Shown piece by piece: positions 4,513-16,833 of a stretch of DNA of 43,814 nucleotides (position 1 is the stretch's first letter; the number at the start of each line of letters is the position of its first letter). The position numbers and the translations under genes are program-made. Source of the stretch: Acidobacteriota bacterium (GTDB lineage Bacteria > Acidobacteriota > Thermoanaerobaculia > Multivoradales > JAGPDF01); the NCBI GenBank assembly GCA_012521815.1, contig JAAYLR010000229.1:1-43814 (forward strand). The letters run 5' to 3'. Below the pieces are notes generated by a model. It worked only from the letters and a program-made list of their open reading frames with translations. It ran no database searches and was not told the DNA's origin.

Positions 4513-7500
4513 ATGGCCGCAGCGCCTCCGGGAGCCCCTCCCCGTCCGTCGGACGGCGGGAAGCCGTCTCTTTTCCCGGATACCCGGCCGGAGAAAGCGC
4601 AGCGGCGCAGCCGTGCCCGGCCCTCCCCACTCCCCGCGACGCCTCCGTACGTCGAGCTCCACGCCGCCTCGGCCTTCTCCTTCCTCGACGGCGCCTCCCT
4701 GCCCGAGGATCTGGTGGCGCGGGCCGCGGAGCTCGAGCTGCCGGGCCTCGCCCTCCTCGATCGCAACGGAGTGCACGGGCTCCCGCGCCTCCACCAGGCG
4801 GCCCGGCGGGCGGGGCTCCGGGCGCTTGCCGGCAGCGAGGTCGTGCTCGCCGGCGAACCCGGCACCACACCGCCCGGGCCCTTCTCTCCCCGCCTCCCCC
4901 TGCTGGTCGCGAACGCGGCCGGCTACCGGAACCTCTGCCGGCTGCTCACCGTCGCCGCCCGCGGCCGGAAGAAGGGGGAGGCCGCCGCGGACTGGGAGCA
5001 GCTTGCGGCGCACGCCGGCGGCCTCTGGGCGCTGACCGGCGGCAGCGAGGGGCCGCTCTCCCGGGCTCTCGCCACCGGCGGCCTCGACGCCGCCCGCGCG
5101 CTCCTCGAACGGCTCGTGGCCACCTTCCCCGGTCGCGTGGCCGTCGAGCTGCAGCGCCACGGCCGCCGCGAGGAGGAGCATCGCAACCGCGCCCTCGTCG
5201 ACCTCGCCCGCCGCCTCCGGCTCCCGCTCGTCGCCACCAACGGGGTGCGCTACGCGCGCGCCGAGGAGAAGCCGCTCCACGACCTGCTCACCGCCCTGCG
5301 CCACCACACCTCCCTCGACGCCGCCGGCCGCCTCCTCGCCGCGCACCGGGAACGGCACCTGAAGAGCGCGACAGAGATGGCCCGCCGCTTCCACGATCTG
5401 CCCGCGGCGCTCGCCGGCACCGCCGAGCTCGCCGCGCGGCTCGACTTCACCCTCACCGACCTCGGCTACCGCTTCCCGGAGTACCCCGTCCCGCCGGGCG
5501 AGAGCGCGAGCTCCTGGCTGCGGCGGGTGACCTGGGAGGGCGCCCGGAGCCGTTTCCGGCCGCTCACCACCCGGGCGCAGGCGCAGCTGGAGCGGGAGCT
5601 CGCGCTCATCGAGAAGCTCGACCTCGCCGGCTACTTCCTGATCGTCTGGGATCTCGTCACCTTCTGCCGCCGCGAGGGGATCCTCTGCCAGGGGCGCGGC
5701 TCGGCCGCCAACAGCGCGGTCTGCTACGCCCTCGCGATCACCGCCGTCGATCCGGTGAAGATGGGGCTCCTCTTCGAGCGCTTCCTCTCCGAGGAGCGGG
5801 GGGAGTGGCCGGACATCGACCTCGACCTGCCCTCCGGCGCCCCGCGCGAGCGGGTCATCCAGCACGTCTACGCCCGCTACGGGCCGCACGGCGCGGCGAT
5901 GACCGCCAACGTCATCACCTACCGCGACCGCTCGGCGGCGCGCGAGGTGGCCAGGGCGCTCGGCTTCGCCCCCGAGCAGGGCGAGCGGCTCGCCCGCCGC
6001 CTCGGCTCGTTCCGGCGTGACCTCGCCCGCGGCGAGCCGCGGGAGCTCGCCGCGGAGCTCACCGCCGCGGGGCTCGATCCCGCGGCCACGCGGGTGCGCC
6101 ACTTCGCCGCCCTCTGGCAGCAGATCCAGAACCTCCCCCGCCACCTCGGCCAGCACTCCGGGGGCATGGTGATCGCCGCCGGACGGCTCGACGAGATCGT
6201 GCCGCTCGAGCCCGCCGCGATGCCGGGGCGGGTCGTCATCCAGTGGGACAAGGACGACTGCGCCGACCTCGGGATCCTCAAGGTCGACCTGCTCGGCCTC
6301 GGGATGCTCAACGCCCTCGCCGAGGCGATCCCCCTCGTGCGCGAGCACGAGAAGGTCCATCTCGACCTCGCCCACCTCCCGCCCGACGACGCGGAGGTCT
6401 TCGCGATGCTGCGCGCCGCCGACACCGTCGGCGTCTTCCAGGTCGAGAGCCGGGCGCAGATGGCCTCCCTGCCGCGCCACGCCCCCCGCCGTTTCTACGA
6501 CCTCGTGGTGCAGGTGGCGATCATCCGCCCGGGGCCGATCGTTGGCGGCATGGTGCAGCCGTTCTTCGAGCGCCGCCTCGGGCGGGCGCCGGTGGAGTAT
6601 CCCCACCCCTCGCTCGCCCCGATCCTCGCGCGCACGCTCGGGGTGCCGCTCTTCCAGGAGCAGCTCCTGCGGATCGCGATGGTGGCGGCGGGGTTCACCG
6701 GCGGCGAGGCCGAGGAGCTGCGCCGGGCGATGGGGCACAAGCGCTCGGTGGCGCGGATGCGGGCGATCGAAGCGCGGCTGCGTGCCGGCATGGCGGCGCG
6801 CGGGATCGGCGCCGAGGCCCGGGAGCAGATCGTGCAGGCGATCACCTCCTTCGCCCTCTACGGCTTCCCGGAGTCGCACGCCGCCTCGTTCGCCCTGATC
6901 GCCTACGCCAGCGCGTATCTCAAACGCCACCACCCGGTCGCCTTCCTCGTGGCCCTCCTCAACTCCTGGCCGCTGGGCTTCTACCACCCCGCGACCCTGG
7001 TCCAGGACGCCCGGCGGCACGGGGTGCGCGTGCTGCCGATCGACGTGCACGCCTCCGGCTGGCGCTGCCGCTGGGAGGCGCTCCCGGAAGGAGGCGGCGC
7101 CTGCCGCCTCGGTCTGCGCTTCCTCGCCGGGCTGCGCCGGGAGGCCGGAGAGGCGATCGCGCGCGCCCGCCGGGAGGGGCCGTTCCGCAGCCTCGACGAC
7201 CTGCGGCGGCGGGCTCGCCTCCGGGCGGACGAGCTCGACACCCTGGCCACGGCCGGGGCGCTCGCCTCCCTCGGTCTCACGCGGCGCGGGGCGCTCTGGC
7301 AGGCGGCGCTCGCGGTGCGCCCCGCTCCTCCGCTCTTCACCGCGGAGACGGCGGGCGAAGCGGCGGCCGCCGCCCCCTCTCCGCTCCCCGAGATGTCCCC
7401 CCGGGAGCGCACCGCCGCCGACTTCGCCACCGCCGGCCTCACCACGGGGCGCCACCCGCTCGCCCACCTCCGCCCCGGCCTCGCGGCGCGCGGGATCGTT

Positions 7501-7806
7501 CCGGCCGCCGCGCTCGCCCGCCTGCCGCACGGCGAGCGCGTCCGCACCGCCGGCGCGGTGATCGTCCGCCAGCGCCCCGGCACCGCGAAAGGGGTGCTCT
7601 TCCTCGCCCTCGAGGACGAGACCGGCATCGCCCAGGCGATCGTCCAGCCCCGGCTCTTCCGCGCCGCGCGGGAGCGGCTCACCGGCACGCGCGGTCTCGT
7701 GGTCGAGGGGATCGTCGAACGGCGGGACGGCGCGGTCTCGCTCCGGGCCGAGCGGCTCTGGCCCCTGCCCGGCCTCCCTCCGGTGCCGAGTCACGACTTC
7801 CGTTGA
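4513..7806 (+). CDS. dnaE2: Error-prone DNA polymerase III alpha-type (DnaE2/ImuC family)
   Basis: N-terminal PHP domain (YVELHAASAFSFLDGAS), QGRGSAANSAVCYALAIT, WPDIDLDLPSG, LPRHLGQHSGGMVIAAGRL, QWDKDDCADLGILKVDLLGLGML, GFPESHAASFALIAYASAYLK; about 1,097 aa, the DnaE2 size class. Confidence 0.92.
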   Translation: MAAAPPGAPPRPSDGGKPSLFPDTRPEKAQRRSRARPSPLPATPPYVELHAASAFSFLDGASLPEDLVARAAELELPGLALLDRNGVHGLPRLHQAARRAGLRALAGSEVVLAGEPGTTPPGPFSPRLPLLVANAAGYRNLCRLLTVAARGRKKGEAAADWEQLAAHAGGLWALTGGSEGPLSRALATGGLDAARALLERLVATFPGRVAVELQRHGRREEEHRNRALVDLARRLRLPLVATNGVRYARAEEKPLHDLLTALRHHTSLDAAGRLLAAHRERHLKSATEMARRFHDLPAALAGTAELAARLDFTLTDLGYRFPEYPVPPGESASSWLRRVTWEGARSRFRPLTTRAQAQLERELALIEKLDLAGYFLIVWDLVTFCRREGILCQGRGSAANSAVCYALAITAVDPVKMGLLFERFLSEERGEWPDIDLDLPSGAPRERVIQHVYARYGPHGAAMTANVITYRDRSAAREVARALGFAPEQGERLARRLGSFRRDLARGEPRELAAELTAAGLDPAATRVRHFAALWQQIQNLPRHLGQHSGGMVIAAGRLDEIVPLEPAAMPGRVVIQWDKDDCADLGILKVDLLGLGMLNALAEAIPLVREHEKVHLDLAHLPPDDAEVFAMLRAADTVGVFQVESRAQMASLPRHAPRRFYDLVVQVAIIRPGPIVGGMVQPFFERRLGRAPVEYPHPSLAPILARTLGVPLFQEQLLRIAMVAAGFTGGEAEELRRAMGHKRSVARMRAIEARLRAGMAARGIGAEAREQIVQAITSFALYGFPESHAASFALIAYASAYLKRHHPVAFLVALLNSWPLGFYHPATLVQDARRHGVRVLPIDVHASGWRCRWEALPEGGGACRLGLRFLAGLRREAGEAIARARREGPFRSLDDLRRRARLRADELDTLATAGALASLGLTRRGALWQAALAVRPAPPLFTAETAGEAAAAAPSPLPEMSPRERTAADFATAGLTTGRHPLAHLRPGLAARGIVPAAALARLPHGERVRTAGAVIVRQRPGTAKGVLFLALEDETGIAQAIVQPRLFRAARERLTGTRGLVVEGIVERRDGAVSLRAERLWPLPGLPPVPSHDFR

Positions 7807-9199: not shown

Positions 9200-12124
9200 T
9201 CACCAGGAGACCGGGAGCCGCAGCCGGTTCCCGGCGCGGTCCCGGTAGCGCAGGTACCCCTCCCGGCGCCCGAACAGGTAGAGGTCGCGGAGGATCTCCA
9301 CGTCCCGCCGGCAGTACTCCGCCACGAGATCGAGCCGCCCTTCGCGCACCCACGCGAGGCTCTGCAGCCCGTCGGCGCTCTTCTCCACCCCGAGCGTCTC
9401 GCGTGCGAGGTGGTCGAGACCGAGGCGGAAGCCGAGCCCCGCGTGGATCTCCTCGAGCAGATCGAGGGTGGGCAGCGTGCGCTCGTACGCCTCCCCCGTG
9501 TAGCCGGCGAGCACCTGATAGTCGAAGCGGCGGCTGTTGAAACCGACCACGAGGTCGGCGCCCTGCAGGGCGGCGGCGAGTCCGGCGATTTCGTCTTCAT
9601 GAAACGTCTCGAACCGGTTCTCCTCGAGGTGGCAGACCACGGCGACCGCGAGCCCCATCCGGTGCGCCAGATGCCAGCCCCCGACCTCGACCGCCGAACG
9701 CTTCGTCTCGACGTCGAAGAGCAGGGTGCGCCGCGCCTCTTCCCGTGCCCGCAGCGGACGCTTCGCAGCCGGCCTCCTGCGCTCGGTCGCCTCCGGTCTC
9801 GTCGTGGGGCCGGGCGGCGGGGATACGGCCTGCGCCGGGCGCTCGGCCGGGCGCAGCGCGAGCGGCGGGGTCGCGGCTGTGGGGTCGAGCCAGTGGCCGA
9901 GGGCGAGGAGCGCGCCCTGCTTGTCGAGGGGGCGGTTTCCGTTCCCGCATTTCGGCGACTGGATGCAGGCCGGGCAGCCCTCGTCGCAGGGGCAGTCGGC
10001 GAGCCGCGCGGCGACCTTCGCGAGCAGCTCCGGAAGCGCCTCGAACCCCTGCCGGACGAGCCCGAGGCCGCCGGGGCGCCCCTCGTGGACGAAGACCGCC
10101 GAAGCTCCGAGCTGCGGATGGAACGGCGTCGAGATCCCGCCGAGGTCGTTCCGGTCGCAGAGGACGGCGAGCGGCAGGAGACCGATCGTCGCGTGTTCGG
10201 CGGCGTGCAGCGACCCGCCGAGGTGACGGCCGGCGTCGCGCAGGCGGGTTTCGAGCCCGGCTCCGCCGAGCCAGAAGAGTCCGTGGGCGGCGAACTCCAC
10301 CGGCGGCAGCGTGAGCGGGTGCGTGTCGAAGACCTGCTGCGAGAAGAGGCGCTTGCGCTCGTATCCCGTGACCCGCTCGGTGATCCGCAGCCGCGCGAGA
10401 CCGGCTCGCAAGCCGCCCTCACCCCGCGTCGCGAGCAGCTCGAGGACCTCGGTCGTCTTCTCGGCGAGCGCCGAGGTGAAGTAGTCGACCTCCGCCCGCC
10501 GCACCACGACCGTGCGCTCCTCCGGACGCAGCTCCTCGACCCGCCACTGCCGGCCGGCGTGGAGATAGATCGCTCCCGGATGGCATTCGTGGAAGACCCG
10601 CACCCCGTCGATCGTGCCGATCGGCCGGCCGCTTCCGAGCTCCACGATCCGGTACCCCTCCCCCGCTCCCCGCAGATCGAGGCCACGCTGCGGCCGTTTC
10701 GCCGCCGCGAGCAGCTCGCCGGTGCCGTCGACCTCCCGCAGCTCGTGCGCGGCCACGAGCTCGCGCAGGACCGCGCCGTGCCGGCCGAGATAGGTCTTCT
10801 CCGGGCTTGGCCGCAGCGGCAGCTCGGCCGCCGCGCAGACGAGCTGCCGGCGCGCCACCTCGGGGTTGCCGGGGTCGAGCACCGCCCGTTCCGCGGCGCC
10901 GGCGAGCAGCGGCTCGGGGTGTTCGAGCAGATACTGGTCGAGGGCGTCGGGCAGCGCGACGAGCGCGGTGAGCGATTCGCGCTCGCCGCGGCCCGCCCTC
11001 CCGCTGCGCTGCTGGAGCCCGAGCACGCTGCCGGGGTAGCCGACGAGCACGCAGGCATCGAGACCGCCGATGTCGATCCCGAGCTCGAGCGCCGAGGTGG
11101 CGATCACCCCCTGCAGCTCGCCCGCGAAGAGACGGGCCTCGATCTCGCGCCGCTCCTCGGCGAGGAACCCCGCCCGGTAGTTCGCCACCCGGGCGGCGAG
11201 CTCCGGCTCCTGCCGCGTGAGGGCGGCGTGGAGGAGCTCGGTGATCCGCCGCGCCTTGGTGAAGACGATCACCCGCTCGCCCCGGGCGAGGAGCTCCACG
11301 AGCAGGTGCAGCGCCGTCGTGTACGGGCTCGCCGCCGGCTGGAGAAGCAGGAGATGCCGGCCCGGACGGGGCGCGCCGGCCGTCTCGACGACGGTGAACG
11401 GCTCGCCGGTCAGAGAGTGGGCGAACGCTCCGGCCTCGCCGATCGTCGCCGAGGCGCCGATCAGGAGCGGCTCGGCTCCGAGGTTGCGGCTCACCCGCAG
11501 GAGGCGCCGCAGCACGTGGTGCATCTGCCCGCCGAAGAGGCCGCGATAGACGTGGATCTCGTCGAGGACGATCCAGCGCAGCTCGCGCAGGAACGCCTCC
11601 CACTGCGGCCAGTGCGGCAGCAGCCCGAGGTGGAGCATCTCGGGGTTGCTGATCAGCACCCGCGGCGGGTGGCGGCGCAGACGGCTCCGTTCGGCGGCCG
11701 GGGTGTCGCCGTCGTAGATCGCGACCGGCAGCTCCCGCTCCCCCAGCCCCGCTGCCTCCGCCAGGCGCCGGAGCTTCGCCCGCTGGTCCTGCCCGAGGGC
11801 CTTGAGCGGGAAGAGGAAGAGCGCCCGCCCGGCCTCGCCGGTGGCGGCCGCCCGGAGGACCGGCAGCTGGAAGACGAGCGACTTGCCCGAGGCCGTCGGG
11901 GTGGCGAGCAGGAGGTTCTCGCCCCGGCCGAGCGCGTCGAGAGCCGCCGCCTGATGGCTCCAGAGCGGGTCGGCTCCGACCGCGACGAGGGCGATCCGGA
12001 GCGCACCGGGGAGCGGCTCCGCGGGAACCCCGAAAGCGGCCGGGCTCCCCGGCGTGAAATGGGCCGCGACGATCTGCGGCCCCAGCCGGGGCTCGGCCCG
12101 CAGCGCCGCCACCAGCGGCGCCAT
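9200..12124 (-). CDS. DEXH helicase with DUF1998 (MrfA/YprA-like) fused to a C-terminal DEDD RNase H-like exonuclease (MrfB/YprB-like)
   Basis: Helicase motifs ATPTASGKSLVFQLP, VLDEIHVYRG, IGASATIGEA, QQRSGRAGRG; zinc-type cluster DCPCDEGCPACIQSPKCGNGN; C-terminus LLFDVETKRS (DxE), VGFNSRRFDYQVL, YCRRDVEIL. Start ATG 12124 (MAPLVAALRA) gives 974 aa; the longer ORF to 12883 runs antisense through the LOG gene. Confidence 0.88.
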   Translation of the reverse strand: MAPLVAALRAEPRLGPQIVAAHFTPGSPAAFGVPAEPLPGALRIALVAVGADPLWSHQAAALDALGRGENLLLATPTASGKSLVFQLPVLRAAATGEAGRALFLFPLKALGQDQRAKLRRLAEAAGLGERELPVAIYDGDTPAAERSRLRRHPPRVLISNPEMLHLGLLPHWPQWEAFLRELRWIVLDEIHVYRGLFGGQMHHVLRRLLRVSRNLGAEPLLIGASATIGEAGAFAHSLTGEPFTVVETAGAPRPGRHLLLLQPAASPYTTALHLLVELLARGERVIVFTKARRITELLHAALTRQEPELAARVANYRAGFLAEERREIEARLFAGELQGVIATSALELGIDIGGLDACVLVGYPGSVLGLQQRSGRAGRGERESLTALVALPDALDQYLLEHPEPLLAGAAERAVLDPGNPEVARRQLVCAAAELPLRPSPEKTYLGRHGAVLRELVAAHELREVDGTGELLAAAKRPQRGLDLRGAGEGYRIVELGSGRPIGTIDGVRVFHECHPGAIYLHAGRQWRVEELRPEERTVVVRRAEVDYFTSALAEKTTEVLELLATRGEGGLRAGLARLRITERVTGYERKRLFSQQVFDTHPLTLPPVEFAAHGLFWLGGAGLETRLRDAGRHLGGSLHAAEHATIGLLPLAVLCDRNDLGGISTPFHPQLGASAVFVHEGRPGGLGLVRQGFEALPELLAKVAARLADCPCDEGCPACIQSPKCGNGNRPLDKQGALLALGHWLDPTAATPPLALRPAERPAQAVSPPPGPTTRPEATERRRPAAKRPLRAREEARRTLLFDVETKRSAVEVGGWHLAHRMGLAVAVVCHLEENRFETFHEDEIAGLAAALQGADLVVGFNSRRFDYQVLAGYTGEAYERTLPTLDLLEEIHAGLGFRLGLDHLARETLGVEKSADGLQSLAWVREGRLDLVAEYCRRDVEILRDLYLFGRREGYLRYRDRAGNRLRLPVSW

Positions 12125-12156: not shown

Positions 12157-12900
<744 letters not shown>

Positions 12901-13020: not shown

Positions 13021-14343
13021 ATGGCTCGCAGGAAGGTGATCGTCATGGGCGCCGCCGGGCGCGATTTCCACAACTTCAACACCCTCTTCCGCGAAGATCC
13101 CGACGTGGAAGTCGTCGCCTTCACCGCGACCCAGATCCCCGACATCGAGGGACGGACCTATCCGCCGGCGCTCGCCGGCTCCTACTACCCCAAGGGGATC
13201 CCGATCCACTCCGAAGAGGAGCTGCCCGGGCTGATCCGCGACCTCGGCGTCGACGAGGTCTGGTTCTCCTACTCCGACGTCTCGAACGACTACCTGGTCG
13301 GACGCGGCGCGCTGGTGACGGCGAGCGGCGCGCACTTCGGCATCTGCTCCGCGACCCGGACGATGCTCGCGTCGAGCAAGCCGGTGATCGCCATCACCGC
13401 GGTGCGGACCGGGGTCGGCAAGTCGCAGACCACCCGCTACCTCAGCCGGATCCTCAAGGAGCTCGGGATGCGGGTGGTGGCGGTGCGCCACCCGATGCCG
13501 TACGGCGACCTCGAGCGGCAGATCTGCCAGCGCTTCGCCACCTACGAGGACCTCGACAAGCACGAGTGCACGATCGAGGAGCGGGAGGAGTACGAGCCGC
13601 ACATCGACAACGGCTTCATCGTCTACGCCGGCGTCGACTACGAGAAGATCCTGCGCGCCGCCGAGGAGGAGGCCGACGTCATCCTCTGGGACGGCGGCAA
13701 CAACGACACCCCCTTCTACAAGCCCGATCTCCACATCGTGCTCGTCGACCCGCACCGGGCCGGGCACGAGCGCAGCTACTATCCGGGGCAGACGAACGTG
13801 ATCATGTCGGACCTCGTGATCGTGAACAAGGTGAACACCGCCGAGCCGGCGAAGGTCGAGGCCGTCGCGGCGAGCTGCCGCGAGCTCAACCCGCGGGCGC
13901 AGATCATCCGCTGCCGCTCGGAGATCACGATCGACAGGCCCGAGCTGGTCGCCGGCAAGCGGGCGCTCGTGGTCGAGGACGGCCCGACCCTCACCCACGG
14001 CGGGATGAGCGTGGGCGCCGGCTGGTTCGCGGCGAAGGACGCCGGCGCCGCCGAGCTCGTCGACGCGCGGCCGTACGCGGTCGGGAGCCTCGCCGAGACC
14101 TACGCGAAGTACCCGAACGCCGCCGGGATCCTGCCGGCCATGGGGTACGGTGACGAGCAGGTCCGCGATCTCGCGGCGACGATCGCCGCCACTCCCGCCG
14201 ACGTCGTCGTCGCCGGCACCCCGATCGAGCTCTCCCGGATCATGAAGATCGAGAAGCCGGTCGCCAACGTCACCTACGAGCTCGCGGAGGAGGAGCCGGG
14301 ACAGCTCGCCGCCGCCGTACGCCGCGCTCTCGGGCGCGGCTGA
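13021..14343 (+). CDS. Cyclic 2,3-diphosphoglycerate synthetase-like P-loop protein
   Basis: MARRKVIVMGAAGRDFHNFNTLFREDPDVEVVAFTATQIPDIEGRTYPPALAG..., Walker A-like AVRTGVGKSQTTRYL, VRHPMPYGDL, WDGGNNDTPFYKPDLHIVLVDPHRAGHE; recognised as the family usually annotated as cDPG synthetase/GTPase. Confidence 0.85.
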   Translation: MARRKVIVMGAAGRDFHNFNTLFREDPDVEVVAFTATQIPDIEGRTYPPALAGSYYPKGIPIHSEEELPGLIRDLGVDEVWFSYSDVSNDYLVGRGALVTASGAHFGICSATRTMLASSKPVIAITAVRTGVGKSQTTRYLSRILKELGMRVVAVRHPMPYGDLERQICQRFATYEDLDKHECTIEEREEYEPHIDNGFIVYAGVDYEKILRAAEEEADVILWDGGNNDTPFYKPDLHIVLVDPHRAGHERSYYPGQTNVIMSDLVIVNKVNTAEPAKVEAVAASCRELNPRAQIIRCRSEITIDRPELVAGKRALVVEDGPTLTHGGMSVGAGWFAAKDAGAAELVDARPYAVGSLAETYAKYPNAAGILPAMGYGDEQVRDLAATIAATPADVVVAGTPIELSRIMKIEKPVANVTYELAEEEPGQLAAAVRRALGRG

Positions 14344-15738: not shown

Positions 15739-16833
15739 ATGCGTTTCGAGCTGATCACGAGCCCCATCCGGCTCGCCGAGGTCGCCGCGAGCTGGCCGGC
15801 CGAGCCGGTGCTCGCCATCGACACGGAGTTCGTCTTCGAACGCACCTACTACCCGCAACTCGGCCTGATCCAGGTCGCCGGCCGGCGCGGCATCTGGCTC
15901 CTCGACCCGCTCGCGCTCGGCGACCTCGCCCCGCTCGCGGCCGCGCTGCGCGCGGCGCCGCTGCGCACCCTGCATGCCGCGCAGGGCGATCTCCACGCTC
16001 TCGCCTGCGCCGGCGTGGAGCTCACGGAACCCCTGCTCGACACCCAGATCGCCGCGGCGCTCGCCGGACTCGGCGGCGGCTTCTCGTATCAACGTCTGGT
16101 GGCGGCACTCCTCGGTATCGAGCTCGGCAAGCACGCCACCCGCAGCGACTGGCTCGCCCGGCCGCTCTCCGAGCCGCAGCTCGCCTACGCCGCCGAGGAC
16201 GTCGGGCATCTCGTGGCGGTGAGCGCGGAGTTGCAGGCGGGGCTCGAACGTTCCGGGCGCCTCTCCTGGGCGCTCGAGGAGTCGGCCTGCCTGCTCGCCA
16301 CCGTGGAGGATCCCGGTCCCGAGGAGGCCTGGCGGCGGGTCGGCGGCCTCGACCAGCTCCCTCCCGCAGCGCGGGCGGCGGGGCGCGCTCTCGCCGCCTG
16401 GCGGGAACGGGAGGCCGCCCGCCGCGACCTGCCGCGCCGTTGGGTGCTGTCCGACGACGCTCTCCTGCGCGTCGCCCGGCTCGATCCCGAGGCAGCCGGC
16501 GTACCCGCGACGATCGAAGGGGTGCCGCCCCGTCAGCTCGCGCGCGACGGGCCGGTCTGGGTCGAGCTGTTGCGACAGGCGAACGCCGCAGACGAGGTGC
16601 CCCCTCCCGCCCTCCGGCTGGAGCCCCGCGACAAGCAGACGATCGATCGCCTGGCGCGGCTCGTGCGCCAGCGCGCCGCCGAGCTCGCGCTGCCGGCCGA
16701 GCTGCTCGCTCCCCGCCGGCTGCTGACGGCGCTGGTGCGCTTCCGCCGCGAGGGACGAAGCGACCTGCCGGCCGGCCTGCGAGGCTGGCGCGAGGAGGTC
16801 ATCGGGCGCGACCTCGCCGCCCTCCTCGACTGA
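15739..16833 (+). CDS. rnd: Ribonuclease D
   Basis: LAIDTEFVFERTYYPQLGLIQVA, HAAQGDLHAL, LLDTQIAAALAG, ATRSDWLARPLSEPQLAYAAEDVGHL; HRDC-like C-terminus. Confidence 0.92.
   Translation: MRFELITSPIRLAEVAASWPAEPVLAIDTEFVFERTYYPQLGLIQVAGRRGIWLLDPLALGDLAPLAAALRAAPLRTLHAAQGDLHALACAGVELTEPLLDTQIAAALAGLGGGFSYQRLVAALLGIELGKHATRSDWLARPLSEPQLAYAAEDVGHLVAVSAELQAGLERSGRLSWALEESACLLATVEDPGPEEAWRRVGGLDQLPPAARAAGRALAAWREREAARRDLPRRWVLSDDALLRVARLDPEAAGVPATIEGVPPRQLARDGPVWVELLRQANAADEVPPPALRLEPRDKQTIDRLARLVRQRAAELALPAELLAPRRLLTALVRFRREGRSDLPAGLRGWREEVIGRDLAALLD

Follow-up and report, generated by a model that had tools for sequence, protein, structure and literature searches.

The window analysed here, a stretch of 43,814 nucleotides from an Acidobacteriota genome (contig JAAYLR010000229.1), carries a gene in whose product a flexible linker connects an intact SF2 helicase of the MrfA class, zinc domain included, to a complete 3'-5' exonuclease domain of the DEDDy type, all in one chain; this arrangement is conserved in several phyla (Table 1). 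Translation of the minus strand gives 974 amino acids and a stop, with no internal stop, as the first-pass annotation had it, and all the motifs quoted there are found (ASGKS, DEIH, QRSGRAGR, CPCDEGCPACIQSPKC, FDVET, NSRRFD and YCRRD). The same frame remains open upstream as far as a GTG at 12883; this extension runs over the upstream gene of the TIGR00730 family, and the homologues begin near residue 1. An assembly error, or a stop or frameshift missed between the two halves, is ruled out, because the single stop-free fusion frame recurs in dozens of independent genomes.

Table 1. Positions, in the window, of the fused gene, its domains and motifs, and nearby genes.
Feature	Position	Strand	Evidence or remark
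Fused helicase-exonuclease gene	9200..12124	minus	974 aa, ATG start, stop at 9200-9202
RecA1-like DEAD/DEAH domain, residues 56-229, with ASGKS and DEIH	11438..11959	minus	Pfam PF00270, E 7.4e-27
RecA2-like Helicase_C domain, residues 273-379, with QRSGRAGR	10988..11308	minus	Pfam PF00271, E 9.8e-15
HRQ1-type winged-helix domain (WHD_HRQ1), residues 416-486	10667..10879	minus	Pfam PF22982, E 3.2e-6
MZB / DUF1998 MrfA zinc-binding domain, residues 642-721	9962..10201	minus	Pfam PF09369, E 2e-18
Cys cluster C711, C713, C717, C720, C726	9947..9994	minus	invariant in 11 fused homologues
Pro/Arg-rich disordered linker, residues 761-797	9734..9844	minus	pLDDT <50 in full-length model
Compact DEDDy 3'-5' exonuclease domain, residues 797-974	9203..9736	minus	AlphaFold, Foldseek, RNase_H_2
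Exo I motif D804-x-E806	9707..9715	minus	invariant in alignments A1 and A2
SAxEVGGW signature, residues 807-817	9674-9706		alignment A1
Exo II aspartate D868 (NSRRFD)	9521..9523	minus	invariant in alignments A1 and A2
Exo III motif Y937-C-R-R-D941, DEDDy signature	9302..9316	minus	Y and D invariant in A1 and A2; H in MrfB
Error-prone DnaE-type DNA polymerase gene	4513-7806		NF004225, 1273 bits (cut-off 939)
440-aa ORF with GVGKSQTTR	13021-14343		nucleotide-binding-type motif
Ribonuclease D gene	15739-16833		TIGR01388, 308 bits

The neighbours are housekeeping genes (for the TIGR00730 protein, an ornithine aminotransferase and a DnaE-type polymerase), and no conserved operon partner or repair operon was seen in the loci flanking the fused genes. 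The polymerase gene lies two genes from the fused gene and is convergent with it; beside this polymerase gene no ImuB-like gene could be recognised. The ribonuclease D gene, which also encodes an exonuclease of the DEDDy class, lies less than 4 kb from the fused gene, probably by coincidence. The 440-aa ORF matched none of the NCBIfam models at 1e-10.

The helicase half

Two features of the MrfA/YprA family are found: a RecA1/RecA2 core of the SF2 type, in which the Walker A and DExH motifs are present, and a C-terminal MZB/DUF1998 zinc domain with a Cys cluster. The five cysteines and the Walker and DExH residues are invariant in an alignment of 11 fused members. MrfA (6ZNP) is the best PDB match of the helicase both by sequence (E 4.9e-118) and by fold (Foldseek E 6.8e-65, 31% identity), which bears out the earlier assignment of this half to the MrfA(YprA) type. 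The best curated helicase model is TIGR03817, which we take to be SftH, at 683 bits, below its cut-off of 874 bits. The actinobacterial SftH / TIGR03817 helicases share about 41% identity with the fused protein over the helicase part, but the two such proteins examined have no nuclease domain and branch apart on the helicase tree.

On this tree the fused helicases form one clade (SH-aLRT 88, rising to 100 when one unfused sister is included) that is distinct from the actinobacterial helicases, from B. subtilis YprA and from the helicases of MrfAB operons, with a support of 100 for the split. A grouping with B. subtilis YprA and the MrfAB-operon helicases was not found on the tree; the fused type stands apart in the wider family, as a clade of its own with full support. 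The unfused helicase that is sister to the entire fused clade (L082) comes from genome G149, which in addition encodes an MrfB-type nuclease and a helicase of the classic MrfA type. Because of this combination, the unfused state of the helicase may be ancestral, and G149 possibly represents the pre-fusion condition.

A DEDDy nuclease and its relation to MrfB

In the full-length model, a low-confidence linker joins the helicase to the nuclease. The AlphaFold model of the nuclease domain itself, built from 18 relatives, has a mean pLDDT of 96.7 and a pTM of 0.91, and Foldseek places it nearest, in the PDB, to the exonuclease domains with which DNA polymerases of the B family, of herpesvirus and of T7 proofread (E 3.5e-6 for the B-family and T7 domains). 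The fold is that of the DEDDy exonucleases (DnaQ-like / RNase_H_2 superfamily). Searched by sequence alone against the PDB, the domain gave nothing useful, and a PF13482 search of the source genome returned no match, a result that we treated as insensitive since hmmscan of the protein puts the domain just above the cut-off (Pfam RNase_H_2, residues 825-949, 24.1 bits with the cut-off at 22).

The acidic residues of the MrfB-type nucleases are all present (D804, E806, D868 and D941) and, together with Y937, they are invariant in the 11-member fused alignment; the predicted active site is a complete DEDDy set. A histidine four residues before the last aspartate, the mark of the DEDDh class, is absent from the domain, and nearly all its kin with intact motifs have a tyrosine there, while the MrfAB-operon nucleases have a histidine at the corresponding position. 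In most members of alignment A1 the DxET is followed by the signature SAxEVGGW, which falls near the place of the MrfB leucine wedge and is a candidate 3'-end-handling loop.

In B. subtilis MrfB, which is a DEDDh enzyme (H258, D262), the nuclease is accompanied by a C-terminal TPR domain and has a long N-terminal insertion (PMC11194089). Neither the insertion nor the TPR domain is present in the fused protein, whose nuclease domain of 178 aa ends at the protein C-terminus. Acidobacteriota do have split mrfA-mrfB operons, with nucleases that are mostly 400-560 aa long and carry HN-x2-D, and these provided a positive control: their nuclease profile (A3) finds the MrfB structure 8UN9 in the PDB at E 9e-48. 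The profile of the fused-nuclease family does not retrieve 8UN9 at E<=10, and in the PDB it comes closest to NrnC-like proteins (E 0.004 or weaker). A sample from the phylum of genome G346 served solely to supply MrfAB operons; it probably consists of Acidobacteriota again, since genomes G453 and G163 agree in the score and length of their helicases.

These comparisons bear on the origin implied by the first-pass annotation, a simple fusion of orthologous mrfA and mrfB genes. Such an event would yield the same overall pair of activities, both nucleases belong to Pfam RNase_H_2 and hhalign aligns MrfB with the fused-type domain (probability 96.6, E 7e-10); a preprint also speaks, in one sentence, of YprA helicases "fused to MrfB/YprB homologs" (Bell et al. 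2025, PMC12458937). However, besides the differences in active site, architecture and profile given above, MrfB is closer in profile-profile comparison to a third group that consists of solo DEDDy proteins (E 4.5e-20) than to the fused-type domain, and on the nuclease tree a long starred branch divides MrfB and this third group from the fused-type family. In addition, genomes G345 and G346 have both a true mrfAB operon and a compact solo relative of the fused domain, and the helicase falls outside the MrfAB-operon clade. We therefore regard the fusion of orthologs as highly improbable. The covalent union of an MrfA/YprA-type helicase with a DEDD exonuclease stands as first annotated, but the identification of the nuclease as MrfB(YprB)-type does not; it is a compact DEDDy domain, non-orthologous to MrfB as judged from motifs, profiles and tree.

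Relatives of the nuclease domain are also encoded on their own, as proteins of some 180-220 aa. On the nuclease tree the fused domains are not strictly monophyletic, as the solo members L042 and L088 nest inside them with weak support; these two are probably later separations from the fusion. Another solo member (L093, 3728-5480, genome G251) overlaps the beginning of a gene for an SbcD-like phosphoesterase, after which comes a gene for an SbcC-like ATPase. Both were recognised by eye, and this neighbourhood suggests a DNA-repair setting.

The domain could also act on RNA, like NrnC or RNase D, and make the fused protein an R-loop or RNA-processing enzyme. Both of these nucleases are likewise of the DEDDy class, and among PDB sequences only nanoRNases of the NrnC type and a related ancestral construct come near significance (E 0.004 to 0.1). 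A role on RNA is nevertheless unlikely, given that DNA-polymerase proofreading domains head the fold matches, that the fusion partner is of a DNA-helicase class and that a solo relative adjoins the SbcD-like gene in one lineage.

In three fused proteins (L025, L026 and L027, from genomes G056, G009 and G024) the DxE and Tyr-x3-Asp motifs are lost and the fused frame is still open. These would be natural inactivated versions. Because they lost the catalytic residues and kept the fusion, nuclease activity would not always be required, and in some lineages the nuclease domain may serve only to bind DNA.

Distribution of fused and split systems

Of 59 relatives of the source genome, 27 have the nuclease domain, many genomes of the same order being without it. 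Of the 297 Acidobacteriota genomes sampled, 58 have it, and in 40 of the 297 helicase and nuclease matches share one frame. Outside this phylum the fusion is present in Myxococcota and Desulfobacterota, in an isolate (Dethiosulfatarculus sandiegensis) and in records that bear the labels Deltaproteobacteria, Desulfovibrio and Desulfobulbus.

An MrfB-type nuclease is encoded in 88 of the 297 genomes and a fused-type helicase in 40 (47 with contig-end cases). No genome combines the two, where 12-14 would be expected to do so (Fisher p 3e-7 and 1e-8, values that ignore ancestry). The two sets span 31 and 18 families, respectively, with no family in common. This pattern suggests that the fused form replaces the two-gene MrfAB system in its lineages. 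Shared ancestry confounds the mutual exclusion, which is consistent with replacement and is not proof of it, because the p-values take no account of ancestry.

The distribution bears as well on a possible function in phage defence, for which C-terminal nucleases on YprA-family helicases are described as typical in passages of the preprint by Bell et al. (PMC12458937). Against this, the fused gene recurs through whole families and is not patchy, its neighbours are the housekeeping genes mentioned above, no methyltransferase or BrxHII-like partner was recognised by eye in the flanking loci, and the best matches of the helicase are repair-branch MrfA and not the defence helicases. We consider such a function quite improbable.

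Proposed function and its setting

By analogy with MrfA and MrfB, we propose, at a probability of about 0.7, that the protein is a chromosomal DNA-repair helicase-exonuclease in one chain, which would do an MrfAB-like job with a non-orthologous DEDDy nuclease and would replace MrfAB in its lineages. The helicase would load on single-stranded DNA at a gap or damaged site and would then move 3' to 5', like MrfA and SftH, while the tethered exonuclease would work along this same strand in that direction, trimming away its freed 3' end. A strand bearing a lesion, such as a bulky adduct or a crosslink, could in this way be peeled and digested in one step, a task matching that of the separate MrfA and MrfB elsewhere. 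For MrfA, MrfB and SftH, the polarity and the part played in repair are those given in PMC11194089 and PMC12458937; a role of the fused protein in mitomycin C repair is an analogy. In published work, complementation between species depends on alleles that are closely related.

The likeness to the B. subtilis pair MrfA/YprA (6ZNP) and MrfB/YprB (8UN9) lies in the helicase architecture with its MZB domain and in a DEDD 3'-5' exonuclease activity as partner. The pair is encoded by two genes, with a DEDDh nuclease bearing an insertion and a TPR domain, whereas the acidobacterial protein is a single chain with a compact DEDDy domain of another lineage. The human RecQ helicase WRN likewise combines a DEDDy 3'-5' exonuclease and a 3'-5' SF2 helicase in one chain, but it is of the RecQ family, has its exonuclease at the N-terminus and lacks an MZB domain; the two architectures are not homologous. 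Staphylococcus aureus DinG is another helicase-exonuclease fusion, which has itself been likened to MrfA plus MrfB (PMC12345164), and differs as a 5'-3' helicase of the DinG family with an N-terminal DEDDh exonuclease.

The fused group noted by Bell et al. is probably the same as the DEDDy-fusion group, or overlaps it. The helicase-nuclease fusion is in this sense already catalogued in outline, and the architecture itself is not new. The term DEDD is absent from the main text of that preprint, and its passages on the subject mention neither a separate origin of the nuclease nor a replacement of MrfAB; in the literature covered here, we found no description of the separate DEDDy lineage or of the exclusion between fused and split systems.

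One might speculate further that a widespread helicase clade sister to the MrfA/YprA repair helicases acquired its non-orthologous DEDDy exonuclease in a single capture, independently re-creating MrfAB as one protein and displacing MrfAB in whole families. We hold this single-capture reading tentatively, at slightly less than even odds; if true, it would be a convergent assembly of the same repair reaction. A further consequence is one of caution, as the fused nuclease should not be annotated as MrfB. In B. subtilis, MrfA and MrfB are epistatic. A natural single-chain version, with a nuclease of other descent, fixes the stoichiometry of the two activities and would make their coupling directly testable.
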